A stretch of 64,000 nucleotides of DNA from Gammaproteobacteria bacterium (GTDB lineage Bacteria > Pseudomonadota > Gammaproteobacteria > UBA6429 > Thiohalophilaceae): assembly GCA_029881995.1 (NCBI GenBank), contig JAOULO010000007.1, forward strand, positions 1 to 64,000, written 5' to 3'. The notes under the pieces are model-generated. The model searched no databases, had not been told where the DNA came from, and was given only the letters and a program-made list of their open reading frames with translations. Positions 43,313-55,977 of the stretch are shown here, one piece after another (within the stretch, counting starts at the first letter, position 1; the number at the start of each line of letters is the position of its first letter). The position numbers and the translations under genes were made by a program.

Positions 43313-44662
43313 ATGAGCAAACACTACGACCTCATCGCCATTGGCGCCGGCAGCGGCGGTTTATCAGCAGCAGAACGTGCTGCGGAATACGGCAAAAAGA
43401 CCGCTGTTATCGAAAACAAAAAGCTGGGCGGAACCTGTGTCAATATCGGCTGTGTGCCGAAGAAGGTCATGTGGTTTGGCTCTCAAATTGCTGAGACTTT
43501 GCAGCTAGCTGGTAGCTACGGTTTTGATGTTTCGGTCAACAACTTCAGTTGGTCAAAACTGGTCGAGTCCCGCGAGGGCTATATAAAAGGGATTACTGAC
43601 TGGTATGGCAATTACCTCAAAGACTCCAATATCGACCACCTGCAGGGCACAGCTAAGTTTGTCGATGTCCATACCCTTGAGGTCGATGGGGAACAATACA
43701 CGGCCGATCACATTGTCATCGCATCGGGTGGTTATCCGGTTATCCCTGATGTGCCGGGTGCCGAATATGGCATTACCTCCGATGGTTTCTTTGCCCTCAA
43801 TGAGCAGCCCAAACGAGTGGCTGTGGTGGGAGCGGGTTATATCGCTGTGGAGCTGGCCGGGGTACTCAATGGTCTGGGCAGTGAGGTCAGCATGTTGCTG
43901 CGCAAGGACCATTTCCTGGGCAGTTTCGATGCCATGCTGCGCGAGACCTTGATGGAGGAAATGCTTGAGACCGGGGTGAATATCATGCCCCGCATCAGTA
44001 TCGAAAAGGTCGAGAAGGTGAGTGATGGCTCACTGACCATCCACTGTGCCGGGGGTGTGACCCTGCAAGGTTTTGATTGTCTGATCTGGGCCATCGGTCG
44101 GGCACCCCTGATCGAGCCACTCAACCTGCCTGCCTCCGGGGTGGCCACGGATGATCAGGGCTATATCCCCACCAATGAATTTCAGGAGACAAATGTGAAA
44201 GGGATCTATGCCGTGGGGGATGTCACTGGCCAGGCCCAACTCACCCCAGTGGCCATTGCCGCAGCACGTCGCCTGTCAGATCGACTCTTTAATAATATGC
44301 CGGACAGGAAGCTGGACTACGAAAATATCCCCACAGTGATGTTTTCTCACCCTCCCATCGGTACCGTGGGCCTGACCGAGGGCGAGGCCAGGGCCAAACA
44401 TGGGGATGCGGTTAAGGTCTATCAGGCCCGATTTACCGCCATGTATCATGCCCTGACCAATCATCCCCAGAAAACAGCCATGAAATTAGTGTGTGTTGGT
44501 GCTGAAGAACGTGTAATTGGGTGTCATGTTATCGGAATTGGTGCCGATGAAATGTTACAGGGGTTTGCCGTGGCCATCAAAATGGGGGCCACTAAAAAAG
44601 ACTTCGATAATACGGTAGCTATTCACCCGACCAGTGCTGAGGAATTAGTCACCATGCGCTGA
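43313..44662 (+). CDS. gor: Glutathione-disulfide reductase
   Basis: 449 residues. FAD-binding [15 protein letters not shown], the redox-active disulfide [16 protein letters not shown] (about 40-50), NADP-binding [17 protein letters not shown] and the C-terminal [12 protein letters not shown] identify glutathione reductase of the proteobacterial Gor type. It reduces GSSG with NADPH in the cytosol. It complements gshB at 24185. The gene appears monocistronic, with a terminator before it and a hairpin after it. Confidence 0.95.
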
Positions 44663-44665
44663 CAT

Positions 44666-44695
44666 TTTACCGGGGGAATGGCTGTCCCCGGTAAA
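44666..44695 (+). other. Ten-base-pair stem-loop between gor and the CheW-LysM gene
   Basis: TTTACCGGGG (44666-44675) pairs perfectly with CCCCGGTAAA (44686-44695) around a ten-base loop. It lies between the gor stop and the next ATG at 44701. There is no T run, so it is a poor intrinsic terminator; it could stabilise the gor mRNA 3' end or mask the next ribosome site, which is itself weak. Confidence 0.6.
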
Positions 44696-44700
44696 GAATA

Positions 44701-46881
44701 ATGGAAGCGACAAAAAGAAAATTACAAGAAGATTATTGCGGACTGGTGTTGACCTATCGGGTCAATGACACCCTGCTATGTGTTCCCGTGGAACATGTTG
44801 AGTCGGTCATTGAGCCTCCCAAACTGACTGACATCCCCAATGCGCCCAGTTATGTCATGGGTGCGTTTCTGCATCGTGGCAAAGCGGCCCTGGCTCTGTC
44901 ACTGAATAAATTACTCCGCCTACCGTCTACAGCTGGGGAACACGGTAAAAAAGAAAGCCTGTTAGTGGTCTGGATGGGGGATCACCCTGTCGGCTACTGG
45001 GTGGACGAAATCAAGGGCATGACCGATTCCAGTCGTGGACACTGGTCAGCGGTACCGGCCCTGATCCGGGATCAGGGTATTACACGTGCGCTGGTCTGTG
45101 ACGGTAATGTATTTTTTCCCCTGGACCTCACACAATCCAAACAGTTCGGTGAAATATTCCGTACCCTTGAAACTCTGGAGAAAAACCGTGTCCATGAGGT
45201 CACTGAAGAAGATGTAAAACGTGTTCAGCAGGAGACTCAACGGGCTGAGCAACAAGGGGCCGAGGCCCTGTTGGAACCAGAACAGGAAATCATCCCCGAA
45301 GATGATTATAAAGTCGCAGAGTTTCCTGCAGACAGGGAATTTGAAGAAGATTACGAAGATCACATTCAAACAAAAAGTTTTACAGATCACGAGCCAGAAA
45401 TCGAAGCCAGTGAATCTGAGTTTGATACCTCTGCCCTGGCCCAGCAAATGTATGAGGCTCGATTTGCTCCGGCTGACTCAGAATCAACCCAACAAACAGA
45501 GCTGGACTATGATGAAAGTGGCCAGGCTGATGCCTTCCTCTCGGAAAAGGGGGATAAGACTGAGCTTTCCGAACAGGCTGATCAGCCGACAGAAGAGGCC
45601 TCCAATGAATCTATTGTCGATGAAAGACAGCTCGATGCCTTTGACCAGGACTATCTGGAATCACTAAAACTTGAAACGATTGAGCTGCTGTTTGATGAAC
45701 ATGGCCAGGCTGATGCCTTCCTGCAATTGCTTGAAAAATTCGATGAGCCAACCAGAGAAATAGACACCGGCAGTCTGGATGAGGCATCAAACGAACCTTT
45801 CATTGATGAATCCCAGATCGACGCCTTTGACCCGGAGTATCAAAAAACCATTCAGCTGGAACAAACTCAGGATATCAGGGCGGATGACCAGGATAATGAA
45901 GGTCTTGCCCTAACTGAAGAACCTTACTCATATCTACCAACTAGCTTAGCAGATGATGAGGTACAGGATGACTCCGATGCTTCACTGGATTATGAAAAAC
46001 TATTTTCTGAAGATGAAGAAGAACATAGGCCAGATGGTGATGTAGATGAGTTGTCCCTGAATGAAGAACCTTATTCCTTGCTGCCAGCTCGTCTGCCAGA
46101 TGAAGAGGGTTCAGAGAGCGATATTGAAACGACATCGTATGATGATCAGTTAGATGATCTACCCGACATGGATTCAACCCTGGCCAGGGCTGATTATTAT
46201 GCCGATAGAATAGCTGAGACCTGGGAAGTCGAACCGGGTCTGGACGATGAAGCGATTCCACCTGCTGCCAGAGAAGATAGGCCACTGGCAAAGGCTGACT
46301 CTGGTTTTATCACCGATATCCCAGAAGAGCTTGAGATTGAGCCCGAAGAAGATGAGATCAAAACGCGTGGCCCGATTGCTCCCATGCCGGGTGGAATTAT
46401 TATTCGACCCGATGGCCAGGTCAGCAAAAGCTTTGGTCTCATAAAGGTATTTACTATTGTATTGGCCACCAGTGCGGCCGGTGCCTGGTGGTTCCGGGAT
46501 GAATTGTTCCACCGTGAACATATCCGCAAAGAAATTCCTTCCATCTTACAAAATGAGATTGCCTATCTTTATTCTGAGCGTGTCAAAATCGTCAATCCAC
46601 CGCGTGGTAAGACCCGCATGCTGGTCGAAACACCTGATGAAGAGATAAAGGTTATCAAACGTAAGTACGTTAACAGGGATCTGTTACGGGAAAGAAGGAA
46701 AAAAGGGGTTAAACTTCACCGGGTCAGGAGAGGTGATACCCTGTGGGATATTGCGCAGAAGTATCTGGCCGATCCCTACCGTTATCCTGAGCTGGCAGAA
46801 AACAACCGTATTCATAATCCAGATTTAATTCGCTCCGGTGATGTGGTAAAAATAACAGTCAAGAAGACTGATAAAAAATAA
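44701..46881 (+). CDS. CheW domain-acidic linker-TM-LysM fusion protein
   Basis: 726 residues. Residues ~10-160 are a CheW-like domain (TYRVNDTLLCVPVEHVESVI; VVWMGDHPVGYWVDEIKGM). Residues ~165-560 are strongly acidic, with two sets of tandem repeats. A single membrane helix (LIKVFTIVLATSAAGAWWF, about 578-596) follows, then a basic coil and a C-terminal LysM domain (RRGDTLWDIAQKYLADPYRY, about 675-720). CheW in the cytosol and LysM in the periplasm would link a chemosensory array to peptidoglycan. The layout recalls FimV in reverse (FimV has LysM first). I know of no named family with this order. No strong ribosome site precedes ATG 44701. Confidence 0.85.
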   Translation: MEATKRKLQEDYCGLVLTYRVNDTLLCVPVEHVESVIEPPKLTDIPNAPSYVMGAFLHRGKAALALSLNKLLRLPSTAGEHGKKESLLVVWMGDHPVGYWVDEIKGMTDSSRGHWSAVPALIRDQGITRALVCDGNVFFPLDLTQSKQFGEIFRTLETLEKNRVHEVTEEDVKRVQQETQRAEQQGAEALLEPEQEIIPEDDYKVAEFPADREFEEDYEDHIQTKSFTDHEPEIEASESEFDTSALAQQMYEARFAPADSESTQQTELDYDESGQADAFLSEKGDKTELSEQADQPTEEASNESIVDERQLDAFDQDYLESLKLETIELLFDEHGQADAFLQLLEKFDEPTREIDTGSLDEASNEPFIDESQIDAFDPEYQKTIQLEQTQDIRADDQDNEGLALTEEPYSYLPTSLADDEVQDDSDASLDYEKLFSEDEEEHRPDGDVDELSLNEEPYSLLPARLPDEEGSESDIETTSYDDQLDDLPDMDSTLARADYYADRIAETWEVEPGLDDEAIPPAAREDRPLAKADSGFITDIPEELEIEPEEDEIKTRGPIAPMPGGIIIRPDGQVSKSFGLIKVFTIVLATSAAGAWWFRDELFHREHIRKEIPSILQNEIAYLYSERVKIVNPPRGKTRMLVETPDEEIKVIKRKYVNRDLLRERRKKGVKLHRVRRGDTLWDIAQKYLADPYRYPELAENNRIHNPDLIRSGDVVKITVKKTDKK
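45520..45853 (+). repeat. Two-copy ~61-residue acidic repeat in the CheW-LysM protein
   Basis: GQADAFL occurs at 45520 and 45703. The companion block EASNE-x-x-[IV]DE-x-Q-[IL]-DAFD-x-[DE]-Y occurs at 45595 and 45781, so a unit of about 61-62 residues is present twice in tandem. A second repeat with core L-x-EEPYS-x-LP starts at 45904 and 46051, 49 residues apart. Both lie in the cytoplasmic linker. Confidence 0.8.
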
Positions 46882-46884
46882 CAC

Positions 46885-47415
46885 ATGCCTGTCGATAGCT
46901 TCGAGAACATCAAGCCTGACATCCACCCCACAGCCTATATTCACGAGCAGGCCCTTGTGGTTGGTGATGTAGTTATTGGAGAAGACAGTTCCGTCTGGCC
47001 CTTTACCGTCATTCGAGGGGATGTAAACGCGATTCGCATTGGTCATCGCACCAATGTACAGGACAACTCGGTACTACATGTTACGCACGATGGCCCTTAT
47101 CGGCCCGGTGGTTATTCGCTTGAAATTGGTAATGAAGTGACTGTCGGACACCGAGTTATTCTGCATGGCTGCAAGGTTGGTAACCAGTGCCTCATAGGTA
47201 TGGGGGCGATTGTGATGGATGGCGCCGTGTTACAGGACAGGGTCTTGTTGGGTGCAGGCAGCCTTGTGACTCCCGGCAAGGAGCTAACGGGTGGTTATCT
47301 GTGGATGGGACAACCGGCCAAAAAGATTCGTGAGCTTTCTGAACAGGAACTCGAATCCCTTGAATATTCCGCTCAGCATTATGTGCGGGTCAAAAACAGA
47401 TACCTTCAGACTTAA
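46885..47415 (+). CDS. Gamma-class carbonic anhydrase-like protein
   Basis: 176 residues of left-handed beta-helix hexapeptide repeats. Zinc-ligand His are visible in VTHDGPYRPGG, VGHRVILHGC and the neighbouring turn, as in YrdA/CaiE-like gamma-carbonic anhydrases. GVGMGAIVMDG-type turns (read as LIGMGAIVMDGAVL) and LWMGQPAKKIREL near the end are typical. It is cytosolic and probably trimeric. It begins three bases after the CheW-LysM stop, so the two are co-transcribed, though a functional link is not obvious. Confidence 0.9.
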   Translation: MPVDSFENIKPDIHPTAYIHEQALVVGDVVIGEDSSVWPFTVIRGDVNAIRIGHRTNVQDNSVLHVTHDGPYRPGGYSLEIGNEVTVGHRVILHGCKVGNQCLIGMGAIVMDGAVLQDRVLLGAGSLVTPGKELTGGYLWMGQPAKKIRELSEQELESLEYSAQHYVRVKNRYLQT

Positions 47416-49114: not shown

Positions 49115-49255
49115 CGAATAAGTATAAAAAATCACATGGATGTAGTGAATCTTTCCCCCAATTCCCTCTTCCAATATTGTTTACATCTTACAGTAACTCT
49201 GTTTGGTGATAGCTATCAATGTCGTTATGACGTCTTATGGATTAGGAGTCTAAAA

Positions 49256-52200
49256 ATGAAAAAATATATATACCTTTTATCACTTATAAGTACCTTCATT
49301 TTTTTAATCGTATTTAAAAATGCACTCTCTGCAGACGAAGGGCCTATGTATTTTTTGAGTTGGGGGGGTAATCCAGATGGGAGCCCTAAAATCATATCGA
49401 TGAGTCAAACTCCCACGCCAGTATGTGCACAATTCGCACAATTTTATACTTCAGAAATACAAAATACGACACTACTTTTCTATGATGTTACTCCACCGTC
49501 TTATGATGGTGATTCATGGAATTGTGATGTCATATGGCCAGGTAGATGGTCGGATGCTTGGAATGCCAGAAGATTCTTTATAGGTTCAGGTTATAAGGGC
49601 AAAAATCCAGCTCGGAATAAAGGAAAAAGCGAATCCTGCTCTTTAGTCGGTAATCCTGTAAATTCAGCCACCGGTAACAAGTATCAAGTTGAAAAAGATA
49701 TTACTGGTGATTTACAAAATAGCTTTCAATTAATCAGACACTACAACAGCCGTAGCAACCAACAGGGTGTTTTTGGCAATAAGTGGACTACGATATATGA
49801 CCAGAAAATAATTCGAACAACCTATACTACGGCTGACACGAATTTCATTTCCCCTGTGGCCACGCTATACAGGGAAGACGGCAACATCTACACATTCGAA
49901 GACAAAAGTGGAATATGGGAACACACCACATCAGAGTATGTAGGCAAACTGGAGGAATTGGCAGATGGCTGGCAATTCACAACGCCTGACAACAAAGTAG
50001 AACACTACGATTCTACAGGTCGTTTGACTCAGATTAGCGAACCGAACGGTTTTACCCAGACCATGGTCTATGATGGCAGAACAGGCAAGCTGATTCAGGT
50101 AGTTGATAGTCTGAACCAGTCACTGACGTTTGGTTATGATGATCAGAATCGTATTAACGCAGTAACCGACTCAGCAAATCGGCTGTTTACCTATACCTAT
50201 GATGTTAATAATAACCTTACATCGGTGATCAAGCCTGATACTACTGTTAAAACCTATCACTATGAAGATATAAATTATCCCAATGCCCTGACAGGTATCA
50301 CCGATGAACGGGGACTTCGCTATGCCAACTGGGAATATAATATCAGTAATCAGGTGACGGCCAGCTATCATGCAGGCAATGCTAGTCGAGTAGATCTGAA
50401 CTATAACATCGATGGAACAACCACTGTCACGAATAGCAAAGCTGTCAGCAGTACATATGCCTTTGAAAATAAACTTGGAGTGATGTATCTGAGCAGTATT
50501 GCAGGACCGGGTTGTAGCAGTTGTGGCAATGGCAATACCAGTTACGAATATGACCCAAGCAATAGCAACTTACTGGCTAAAACTGTTAATAACCAGAGAA
50601 CAGAATATGGCGATTACACCAGTAAAGGAGAGCCGGGTTTTAAAATCGAGGCAGCCGGTACACCGGAAGCAAGGACCATCCGTTATAGCTATGACCCCCG
50701 ATTTACCAATAAGGTAAGCCAAATTATTGAGCCGTCGGTTCATTCCCCAGCATCAAGAATTACCACCTTTGAGTACGACACATTCGGTAACCCCACACGT
50801 TATCAAATCGATGGTTTCAGACCCGATGGCTCGCCGGTATCCCGTTCATACCAACTGCAATATAACGGGCCAGTTAACCAGTTAAGCCAGATCGATGGGC
50901 CAAGGACGGATGTAAATGATGTGACCAACCTCTTCTATTATCCCAATGATCCTGCTCAGGGTTTCAACAGAGGTCGCCTGCAGCGTGTCGAAGGGCCGAA
51001 CGGGTTGATACTACGAGACAATATCCAGTACACCGCCACTGGCAAGGTACAGTCAGAGACAGGCATAAATGGGCTTTTCACTACGAATACCTATTATCCT
51101 GGTAATGATCGACTGGAAACACGCACTCAGGGCGATTATGGTCAGCTAAGAACCACCCATTGGAGCTATCTACCAACCGGAGAAGTAGAAGCTGTGACTC
51201 TGGGGGCGGGAACACCTGAAGAAATGATTCTTCACCTTACCTATGACGACGCCCGCCGCCTGCGTCGTATCACCGACAGACTTGGCAATTATATCGAGTT
51301 TGAGCTGGATACCGAGGGTAATCAGCTCTCAGAAAAGGTCTTCGACAACATGGGCTTTCTGAAAAAGACCCTGAACCAAACCTTTGATGTTTATAACCGT
51401 CTTCACTCGACTTCACAGGCCAATGAAAATAATGGCTACGATTTTGCCCCTGATGGCACCCTGAACGTACATATCGATGGTAATAATGTGGTCACTGAGT
51501 TTGGTTATGATGCCCTCAAACGCCTGACCACTACCAACCAGGATCCGGGCGGTAGTGACCCCTCCACGATCAATACTCTGACCCAGTACGGCTATAATGT
51601 ACACGACAAACTTACCAGTGTGACAGATCCAAAAGGTAGTAGGACCGATTATTTATATGACGATCTAGGTAACATGCTGGTACAGATCAGCCCTGATACC
51701 GATGTCACCACCTTTACTCATGATGAGGCCGGTAACATTAAGACCCGCACCGATGCAAAAGGTCAGGTTCTGCACTACATGTATGATGAATTTAATCGCC
51801 TGCTCTCAATTGATGCCCCTGGCACTGAAGAAGATATCAACCTGATTTATGATGTTTGTCCTTATGGTTTAGGTAGGCTGTGTCATGCCCATATTGGAAC
51901 GACCAGTATTGATTACTTTTATAATGCCTTTGGTGATGTTGAAAAACATCAGGGCACTGTCTATGAATACGACAGTGTGGGCCGTATCAAGACCATGATC
52001 TATGCCTCGGGTATTGTCCTTAACTACCAGTACAACCCCAGTGGTCAGATACGCAAAGTCACCGCCAATATTGAAGGCATGGATCGCATCCTGGTCGACA
52101 ATGTGCAATATCAACCCTTTGGGCCGGTTGAATCGATGATTTACGGTAATGGTAAAGACATGCTAAGCCAATATGACACAGCCTATCGGTCTACCCAGTT

Positions 52201-54235
52201 AAACACACCCGGTGTATTGCAACTCAACTATCCTGCCTATGATGGCAATGGAAATATCCTCGCGCAGGATGAATTAATCTCCAGTAATTTCACTAACTAT
52301 GCATATGACAGTCTGGATCGACTCATCGCATCCAATGACAGCCTGTTTGTCCAGGCATTCAGCTATGACAAAAACGGTAACCGTATCCAGTTATTCGATA
52401 ACAGCATACTGACTAACTATGAATACTCACCAGCAGGTAATCAACTGCAACAGGCAGGTAGTGTAGCGATTGTCACAGATCCCAATGGCAACATTGAGTC
52501 AGATGGCACCAATAACTATACCTATTCTTCCTACAATCTTTTGAATACCGTCAATGGCAATGTCAGCTATCGCTACAACGCGCTGGGTCAGCGTATTAGC
52601 AAGACAGTTGATGGGGTGGAGACACAGTATATCTATGACCTTAATGGCAAGCTGATTTCTGAAAGAGATGCCAGCGGTCAGATAACAAAGGATTATTTCT
52701 ATCTTGGGAGTCAGCCGATTGCTGTTTATAGCCATAGCCAGACAGTGGCAGAACCTGTTGATCTGGTGATTGATAATCCAGAGGCAAGTTATATTGGTAA
52801 TTGGAGAGCATCTAGTAAATATCCAGGATTTATTGGCAGTAATTACCATTTCATAGACCCAGGTGTTGGGACTGGCCCAGTACCATTATTCGTCGTAGAT
52901 AATGGCGATCCCGGAACGAGTGTTGTTGGAACATGGCTATATTCATCCAGATATGCTGGATATAAAGGGAGTGACTATGCATACAATGCGGCCGGAACAG
53001 GCCAGAATGTTTATACTTGGCCAATTGGTGTAGACACACCGGGTGAATACAGGGTGTATGCGAACTGGACATCCAGTGCTACTCGTGCCACTGATGCGAG
53101 CTATACCATAACCCATGTGAACGGTGTCGATACAGTAACAGTTAATCAGCAAACCAATAGTGGTAGCTGGCAACTGCTTGGTAGTTTCATGCTGGATGCC
53201 AACAGTCAGGTCAGTTTGAGTGATGCCGCTAATGGGTCAATGGTTGCGGATGCCATTATGGTTGCAGGCCTTACCGACCAAATAAATGCGGCCACCTGGG
53301 TTCTACCTGTTGCAGCTGGAAATTATCAAATATATGCAAACTGGAGTGCCGACGCCGGGCGTGCGAATGATGCCCCCTACACAATCAATCACGCAGGTGG
53401 GAGCACACCTATTGTTGTAAATCAACGCATTAATGGAGCAAGCTGGCAACTGCTTGGAGAATTTGCTCTGGGTGAGTCGAGCAGTATACAACTGACTCAG
53501 TCGCTTAGTGGCTATTCAGTTGCTGATGGAATAAGGATTGTTGGAGAGTCTCAGGCAGCGGGTGCAGGTGAATTACACTATATCCACACCGACCACCTTG
53601 GCACACCCAGGGCCGTGACCAATGACACCGGCACCGTTATCTGGCGCTGGCAAAGCGACCCCTTCGGCCACGCCGCCGCCAATGATGATCCGGACGGTGA
53701 TGGCAACACCAACGAAATGAACCTGCGCTTCGCCGGGCAGTATTATGATGCAGAGAGTGGGCTTCATTATAATTACTTCAGGTATTATGATCCGAAGACG
53801 GGCAGATACATTACAAGTGATCCGATTGGGCTAATGGGGGGATTGAATACGTATAGTTATGTGAATGCGAATCCAATAAATGGAATTGATCCGTGGGGAT
53901 TATTTAAAGTTTGTAGACGTCCATTATCATTTATGGGTAATTATATGAGCTCAGGTAGCACAGGGACAAATCTTGGCCTTTTTCATGAGCATGGTTTTTA
54001 TGAGGATGGCTCAGGTGACAATGTTGGTTTTGGTCCTGATGGAGTATTACCTGACAATAATAATTCAAGTAATTATGAATGCAGTAATCAAAGCTACGAT
54101 GATAGTACAATGAGACAAGCCGAACTAAATATTAGTGCTAATTGGCCTGGAGATAGTTATAATTTCATTACAAATAACTGCCAAGATTACATTGATGCGT
54201 TACTCGATGAATATAATCGATTGTTGACCAGGTAA
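49256..54235 (+). CDS. Sec-exported RHS/YD-repeat protein with golvesin-like insert and variable tip
   Basis: About 1659 residues from ATG 49256 (AGGAG at 49244-49248). A signal peptide (YLLSLISTFIFLIVF) is followed by a DUF6531-type segment (NSATGNKYQVEKDITGD) and many YD/RHS repeats (about 190-1160). A golvesin C-terminal-like region with two similar units (GSWQLLGSFMLDAN; ASWQLLGEFALGES) covers about 1167-1433. The RHS closing segment follows (HTDHLGTPRAVTND; GRYITSDPIGLMGG; NPINGIDPWGLF), then a ~112-residue tip. The tip has FHEHGFYEDGSG and TNNCQDYIDALL, a His/Cys pair suggestive of a permuted papain-like hydrolase. It may be a toxin or an adhesin; no PAAR domain is present. Confidence 0.9.
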   Translation: MKKYIYLLSLISTFIFLIVFKNALSADEGPMYFLSWGGNPDGSPKIISMSQTPTPVCAQFAQFYTSEIQNTTLLFYDVTPPSYDGDSWNCDVIWPGRWSDAWNARRFFIGSGYKGKNPARNKGKSESCSLVGNPVNSATGNKYQVEKDITGDLQNSFQLIRHYNSRSNQQGVFGNKWTTIYDQKIIRTTYTTADTNFISPVATLYREDGNIYTFEDKSGIWEHTTSEYVGKLEELADGWQFTTPDNKVEHYDSTGRLTQISEPNGFTQTMVYDGRTGKLIQVVDSLNQSLTFGYDDQNRINAVTDSANRLFTYTYDVNNNLTSVIKPDTTVKTYHYEDINYPNALTGITDERGLRYANWEYNISNQVTASYHAGNASRVDLNYNIDGTTTVTNSKAVSSTYAFENKLGVMYLSSIAGPGCSSCGNGNTSYEYDPSNSNLLAKTVNNQRTEYGDYTSKGEPGFKIEAAGTPEARTIRYSYDPRFTNKVSQIIEPSVHSPASRITTFEYDTFGNPTRYQIDGFRPDGSPVSRSYQLQYNGPVNQLSQIDGPRTDVNDVTNLFYYPNDPAQGFNRGRLQRVEGPNGLILRDNIQYTATGKVQSETGINGLFTTNTYYPGNDRLETRTQGDYGQLRTTHWSYLPTGEVEAVTLGAGTPEEMILHLTYDDARRLRRITDRLGNYIEFELDTEGNQLSEKVFDNMGFLKKTLNQTFDVYNRLHSTSQANENNGYDFAPDGTLNVHIDGNNVVTEFGYDALKRLTTTNQDPGGSDPSTINTLTQYGYNVHDKLTSVTDPKGSRTDYLYDDLGNMLVQISPDTDVTTFTHDEAGNIKTRTDAKGQVLHYMYDEFNRLLSIDAPGTEEDINLIYDVCPYGLGRLCHAHIGTTSIDYFYNAFGDVEKHQGTVYEYDSVGRIKTMIYASGIVLNYQYNPSGQIRKVTANIEGMDRILVDNVQYQPFGPVESMIYGNGKDMLSQYDTAYRSTQLNTPGVLQLNYPAYDGNGNILAQDELISSNFTNYAYDSLDRLIASNDSLFVQAFSYDKNGNRIQLFDNSILTNYEYSPAGNQLQQAGSVAIVTDPNGNIESDGTNNYTYSSYNLLNTVNGNVSYRYNALGQRISKTVDGVETQYIYDLNGKLISERDASGQITKDYFYLGSQPIAVYSHSQTVAEPVDLVIDNPEASYIGNWRASSKYPGFIGSNYHFIDPGVGTGPVPLFVVDNGDPGTSVVGTWLYSSRYAGYKGSDYAYNAAGTGQNVYTWPIGVDTPGEYRVYANWTSSATRATDASYTITHVNGVDTVTVNQQTNSGSWQLLGSFMLDANSQVSLSDAANGSMVADAIMVAGLTDQINAATWVLPVAAGNYQIYANWSADAGRANDAPYTINHAGGSTPIVVNQRINGASWQLLGEFALGESSSIQLTQSLSGYSVADGIRIVGESQAAGAGELHYIHTDHLGTPRAVTNDTGTVIWRWQSDPFGHAAANDDPDGDGNTNEMNLRFAGQYYDAESGLHYNYFRYYDPKTGRYITSDPIGLMGGLNTYSYVNANPINGIDPWGLFKVCRRPLSFMGNYMSSGSTGTNLGLFHEHGFYEDGSGDNVGFGPDGVLPDNNNSSNYECSNQSYDDSTMRQAELNISANWPGDSYNFITNNCQDYIDALLDEYNRLLTR

Positions 54236-55443: not shown

Positions 55444-55977
55444 ATGCCAAACTACCGGCGAAATCGAATACCGGGCGGGTGTTACTTTTTTACTGTCAAT
55501 CTTCTTGAACGGCACAACAACACGCTCCTTGTTGATCATATTGATCTGTTACGACAGGTGGTGAAACAGGTATATGATCGTTATTACTTCCACATCAATG
55601 GCTGGGTGGTGTTACCTGAACACATGCATTTTATCTGGACCCTACCAAAGGGAGATGACGACTATGCGGGGCGAATCCGACTGATAAAAATGCTTTTCTC
55701 AAAAAAACTTTCAAAAGATGAACGTCGTTCAAGCGTGAGAATACATAAAGGTGAACGGGGAATCTGGCAACGCCGATATTGGGAGCATACCATTCGTAAT
55801 GAAAGAGATTATGTCCAGCATATGGATTATCTACACTATAACCCGGTTAAGCATGGCTATGTAAATAAGGTGATAGACTGGCCATACTCTACATTTCGGC
55901 GACTTGTCTGCCAGGGGATGTATCCAGAATGCTGGGGTACCGAGAAAACGGATATTGAGGTGGGAAAACCGCGGTAA
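55444..55977 (+). CDS. REP-associated tyrosine transposase (RAYT)
   Basis: 177 residues of the Y1 (TnpA/HUH-like) transposase family. GGCYFFTVNLLER near the N-terminus, the HxH metal motif in LPEHMHFIWTLP, the QRRYWEHTIR block and YVQHMDYLHYNPVKHGYV with the catalytic Tyr are all present, so it seems intact. RAYTs nick and join single-stranded DNA at REP palindromes, and three REP copies lie immediately upstream. It is a domesticated single-copy-type element, not a classic IS200/605 with its own ends. Confidence 0.93.
   Translation: MPNYRRNRIPGGCYFFTVNLLERHNNTLLVDHIDLLRQVVKQVYDRYYFHINGWVVLPEHMHFIWTLPKGDDDYAGRIRLIKMLFSKKLSKDERRSSVRIHKGERGIWQRRYWEHTIRNERDYVQHMDYLHYNPVKHGYVNKVIDWPYSTFRRLVCQGMYPECWGTEKTDIEVGKPR

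Follow-up and report, generated by a model that had tools for sequence, protein, structure and literature searches.

A CheW-transmembrane-LysM protein family in Gammaproteobacteria as a plausible peptidoglycan anchor for chemosensory arrays

The positioning of chemosensory arrays is understood in few systems, such as that of ParC/ParP/HubP in Vibrio or those of similar landmark proteins, all of which operate via cytoplasmic adaptors. The landmarks FimV and HubP are built of LysM, transmembrane (TM) and acidic parts, in that order (PMC12918733), and ParP of Vibrio carries on a linker a CheW-like domain that integrates in the array and fixes its place (PMC5706961). The stretch of DNA analysed here (64,000 nucleotides, hereafter the window) contains a gene in which features of both kinds of protein are found together, since a CheW domain, an acidic linker of about 430 residues, one membrane helix and a LysM domain are encoded in one frame at 44701-46881(+), a domain order that an earlier note on this DNA had claimed and that the present analysis confirmed.

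The window gene and its predicted protein

The gene, its parts and its surroundings are the following, in window coordinates:

43313..44662, + strand: gor, glutathione-disulfide reductase, upstream neighbour (NCBIfam E 6e-206)
44666..44695, + strand: strong 11-bp hairpin in the interval from the gor stop to the ATG, without T-run (RNAfold about -17.7 kcal/mol)
44701..46881, + strand: CheW-linker-TM-LysM protein, group B (ATG start, 726 aa)
44746..45129, + strand: CheW domain, residues 16-143 (Pfam PF01584, predicted fold, groove residues)
45139..46428, + strand: acidic, probably disordered linker, presumed cytoplasmic, residues ~147-576 (composition, degenerate direct repeats)
45908..45961, + strand: linker motif L-x-L-x-EEPYS-x-LP-x-x-L, copy 1 (repeat search)
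46055..46108, + strand: the same linker motif, copy 2 (repeat search)
46429..46491, + strand: predicted single TM segment, residues ~577-597 (hydropathy across the family; long helix in the model)
46585..46698, + strand: conserved beta-hairpin and helix between TM segment and LysM, residues ~629-666 (alignment; model local pLDDT ~88-92)
46717..46857, + strand: LysM domain, residues 673-719 (Pfam PF01476)
46885..47415, + strand: gamma-carbonic-anhydrase-like hexapeptide protein, downstream neighbour after a 3-nt gap (NCBIfam E 5e-52, below cut-off)

Further along, the window encodes a protein of 1699 aa with RHS repeats and the domains Golvesin_C and DUF6531 (49136-54235); beyond it, at 55444, there is a weak match to an IS200-like transposase.

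The N-terminal domain, which the earlier note read as CheW-like while allowing that structure prediction might give another fold, kept that identity: the Pfam match (E 1.5e-16, with 60.7 bits where the cut-off is 23.5) is joined by an AlphaFold2 model with a pLDDT of 87.9, whose 18 Foldseek matches at E<=0.001 are without exception CheW or CheA-P5 chains, and which VIA-align superposes on CheW chains, the best Z being 18.0, over 141 residues of TtCheW 2qdl. The residues of the receptor groove in the CheW of T. maritima, L14/V27/I30/V33 (PMC5706961), correspond in the window protein to L17/V30/V33/V36, and each of the five group B sequences has hydrophobic residues at these positions. Group B also keeps a conserved Arg in the CheW loop that is absent from group A, so that array binding may differ between the two groups.

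The linker is rich in D/E (30%) and poor in K/R (7%). It holds, at 45499-46108, degenerate in-frame repeats (QADAF, DAFD-x-x-Y and EEPYS motifs) that are multiplied in the orthologue of genome G002, where the longer motif listed above also occurs in several copies, which suggests either a docking motif or a change in length driven by the repeats.

The highest hydrophobic stretch, from residue 577, has a modest Kyte-Doolittle value of 1.58, the remaining group B members having stronger segments at the equivalent position (2.16-2.21); hydropathy predicts a TM segment in all members of the family, and AlphaFold2 gives a single long helix at residues ~577-611. The K/R counts flanking the segment point to neither orientation (p=0.51 over 43 family proteins), and in group B the C side equals or exceeds the other. 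In the C-terminal model (mean pLDDT 74.7) the long helix is followed by the beta-hairpin with its helix and by a beta-alpha-alpha-beta unit resembling LysM. The LysM domain, too small to be ranked alone by Foldseek, is recognised by Pfam (E 7.7e-10, with 39 bits where the cut-off is 20.9), and its nearest solved relatives carry LysM/TsaP annotation; for the region from TM to LysM no confident fold match was found in the PDB, where the best VIA-align Z was 5.0, to unrelated chains.

No curated family model spans the whole protein, NCBIfam giving weak LysM matches below cut-off and no FimV family among its matches. Likewise no paper describing the CheW-TM-LysM order was found in a mainly non-subscription literature, where a mention in some domain-architecture survey is possible; thus the family is apparently unnamed, in agreement with the earlier statement that no named family has this order.

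A recurrent architecture in two groups

The earlier note had proposed looking for the same domain order across genomes. A search with the C-terminal part, followed by a profile search, both in the GTDB family and class, and by a scan of genome contigs, yielded 43 different proteins that combine CheW, TM and LysM in a single frame. Their carriers belong to one GTDB family of Gammaproteobacteria and to at least nine others of that class, and include two metagenome-assembled genomes (MAGs) of Thermodesulfobacteriota; outside the first family they are f34, f36, f49, f53, f65, f102, f125, f127, f137, a Thiohalomonas-labelled MAG (L061) and the two Thermodesulfobacteriota MAGs (L057, L059). In the contig scan about 9 of 80 loci had the CheW-TM-LysM order, the rest being mostly TsaP- and BON-LysM-like, without CheW. 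Nearly all the frames of the family are intact and their loci conserved, the copies in G163 and G216 seemingly being split by a frameshift. Recurrence in 43 proteins makes this architecture more than a chance event.

The genome of the window (G000) has two such proteins, one of the widespread group A and one, that of the window, of the rarer group B. The group A locus lies between ksgA and apaG/apaH across most of the GTDB family, and its copy in this genome encodes 515 aa (L040:8629-10176, in G000:C16); on the side away from ksgA its end overlaps the first bases of a TM-LysM gene (L040:10166-11188). Group B comprises five genomes (G000, G002, G004, G005 and G010), and its gene is adjoined by gor also in G002, G004 and G010, and by the gamma-carbonic-anhydrase-like gene also in G002, G004 and G005. 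Near it in G004 and G005 there is a MinD-like ATPase gene (L047:3524-4918 and L048:1601-2896, respectively), none being seen in the window.

In a tree of 47 CheW domains, 35 of them from the family, all 35 form one clade (94/82), which sits beside CheW/CheV and not PilI/ChpA/ChpC, with weak placement (73/42). The domains of the two Thermodesulfobacteriota MAGs (L057:6001-7476 and L059:1-1569) are sisters (100/99); old origin, transfer and mis-binning are candidate causes of the architecture in these MAGs. Other proteins (L226:2624-4678, L231:1-1739, L232:2202-4349, L049:9998-11329 and L052:7376-8854) have the layout of acidic linker, TM and LysM behind a non-CheW N-terminal part, and may belong to a larger class of cytoplasmic modules anchored to the wall.

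Flagellar and Pil-Chp arrays, ComFB, and rival readings

Presence of the protein was compared with that of array genes in 40 genomes of the GTDB family, most of which look like MAGs, by Fisher tests that ignore kinship; the evidence comes mainly from group A. The protein and flhA occur together in 27 genomes, the protein alone in 3, flhA alone in 3 and neither in 7 (p=6e-4, ignoring kinship); among genomes at least 90% complete these counts are 20, 1, 0 and 3 (p=0.002). As to the exceptions, two carriers without flhA (G028 and G029) still have a flagellar-type CheA, the third (G033) is 66% complete, and the three genomes with flhA only are 75-88% complete. In G026, which has no flagella, the genes that normally lie downstream of group A (a 163-aa gene, comFB, apaG and apaH; L233:7350-9415, in G026:C80) are intact and the group A gene is missing, whereas elsewhere in its genus they occur together. 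Outside the GTDB family flhA is found in 12 of 12 carriers, against 199 of 365 genomes overall (p=6.5e-4, ignoring kinship). In the genome of the window the flagellar cluster, its genes mostly named by eye, lies on contig C111 (L227), with flhA, flhF, fliA, cheYZAB, mot, cheW, and ParA-like and ParP-like genes. Thus the array served by group A would most likely be the flagellar one. For the window protein, by inference from the group A evidence, the flagellar array is somewhat favoured, its array being less certain because every genome with group B has Chp as well as flagella.

A second association concerns ComFB, which in the genome of the window is encoded near the group A gene (L040:11759-12022; PF10719, E 5e-24). 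In 27 of 30 carriers a ComFB gene is found no more than a few kb from group A, whereas 2 of 10 non-carriers have such a gene (p=8e-5), namely G001, where it is at a contig edge, and G026; in the Thiohalomonas-labelled MAG it adjoins the family gene. A functional link between ComFB and group A is suggested by this gene linkage. Two extra copies of ComFB are present in the genome of the window (C60 and C69). ComFB reportedly binds c-di-AMP and also c-di-GMP, and the cyanobacterial protein is reportedly required for pilus biogenesis (PMC12313861).

The earlier note had suggested that the protein could position or gate PilJ-ChpA, the array that belongs to type IV pili, in the role of FimV, because the chp cluster is 7 kb away. 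In favour of such a role, apart from this proximity, it could be argued that ChpA is present in all five group B genomes, and that ComFB, the neighbour of group A, has the reported part in pilus biogenesis mentioned above. However, the expected co-occurrence with chpA did not appear, since among family genomes presence of the protein is independent of ChpA (p=1.0) and follows flhA instead; in G003 and G020 (both 100% complete) and G026 (93%) ChpA is the sole CheA, and these genomes lack both flhA and the CheW-TM-LysM protein; and conversely, among carriers outside the GTDB family, G382, G333 and G091 have flhA and show no ChpA-sized CheA, with the proviso that ChpA was called from the length of the ORF and a weak match to H-kinase_dim, a procedure that in distant genomes might overlook a divergent ChpA. 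Nor is the proximity conserved, given that ChpA and the group B orthologue are about 100 kb apart on the same contig in G010, and that the 14-kb contig with the orthologue of G004 carries no chp genes. The loss of fimV that a replacement would imply is not observed either: FimV, whose sole TIGR03505 match in this genome is a separate gene (C90), is retained by every one of the 21 carriers whose completeness is at least 90%, and the window protein as a stand-in for FimV is therefore rejected. The Pil-Chp assignment is likewise discarded for the whole family; for group B taken alone it is conceivable, if unlikely.

Other readings have to be weighed against the same observations. The protein could be an envelope sensor, its LysM domain binding peptidoglycan or released muropeptides and its CheW domain altering the activity of the array, possibly with the second-messenger receptor ComFB; LysM domains in general bind GlcNAc polymers, and the conserved beta-hairpin between TM and LysM, as well as the linkage of ComFB to group A, would fit such a function, but one TM segment and a very long acidic linker offer no obvious route for a conformational signal, and G026 keeps ComFB without the CheW-TM-LysM protein, all of which makes this improbable. 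Since flagella, flagellar CheA and group A are lost together, a link to flagella outside chemotaxis is also conceivable. A further reading is a scaffold associated with the flagellum or the pole, acting for example in flagellar placement, with a CheW domain that no longer joins arrays. The loss of the loop Arg in group A, the association with flhA and the MinD-like gene near group B in G004 and G005 speak for it, yet group B keeps the receptor-groove residues and the CheW domain is clearly constrained, so that such a scaffold appears quite improbable. Finally, that the gene is a chance fusion, a gene-prediction artefact or a degraded gene, as the low complexity of its acidic linker might lead one to suppose, is refuted by conservation (distinct sequences, conserved loci and frames nearly all intact), and the chance left to it is negligible.

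A proposed tether between array and wall, and its known counterparts

The best explanation, to which we would give an even chance, is that the window protein is a transmembrane tether from a chemosensory array to the cell wall; as far as can be judged from sequence, a peptidoglycan anchor for such an array is plausible. The N-terminal CheW domain, with its predicted fold and groove residues, would sit in the cytoplasmic layer of CheA, CheW and receptors; the acidic linker, by its length and composition, would act as a flexible leash bridging this layer and the membrane; the single predicted helix would cross the inner membrane; and the C-terminal LysM domain would grip peptidoglycan in the periplasm. 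The net effect would be an array, and perhaps also its pole, held against the wall. More tentatively, and at somewhat less than even chance, the family would physically connect flagellar arrays with peptidoglycan across the inner membrane. Such a direct link is absent from the known models of arrays, and the cyclic-dinucleotide receptor ComFB, encoded nearby, would be a possible regulator of it.

If this were true, an array domain and a wall-binding domain in one protein would constitute a direct mechanical link, which could explain the resistance of arrays to lateral diffusion, or envelope sensing by arrays. It would also provide a concrete gene to delete, and the question of retention at the pole would become testable in many uncultured gammaproteobacteria.

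With regard to the coupling proteins CheW and CheV, the window CheW domain has an equal fold and has kept the residues of the groove for the receptor tip; these proteins, however, are soluble, and in CheV the additional domain is a receiver where the window protein has TM-LysM. The LysM domain is of the same kind as that of TsaP, the LysM protein of type IV pilus secretins, whereas TsaP-like proteins have it N-terminally behind a signal sequence and without a CheW domain, and in this genome a TsaP-like protein is a separate gene (L041:6457-7533). With ParP the protein shares a CheW-like domain, a long linker and a positioning domain, but in ParP the CheW-like domain is C-terminal and placement depends on ParC, and to our knowledge ParP has neither TM nor LysM; the genomic context of ParP is also absent here, the neighbours being gor and a gamma carbonic anhydrase and not parC or a flagellar cluster, and the flagellar cluster of this genome has its own ParP-like gene, next to a ParA-like one (L227:6211-7736). 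Finally, FimV and HubP have a LysM domain, one TM segment and a long acidic cytoplasmic part, to which correspond, in reversed order, the LysM, the TM segment and the acidic part, presumed cytoplasmic, of the window protein: their LysM is N-terminal and outside, with the acidic tail inside, whereas that of the window protein is C-terminal, and where they end in a C-terminal TPR/FimV domain it has a CheW domain instead. In other words, the proposed arrangement would mirror that of FimV/HubP and, like ParP, would have at its end a domain that integrates in the array.
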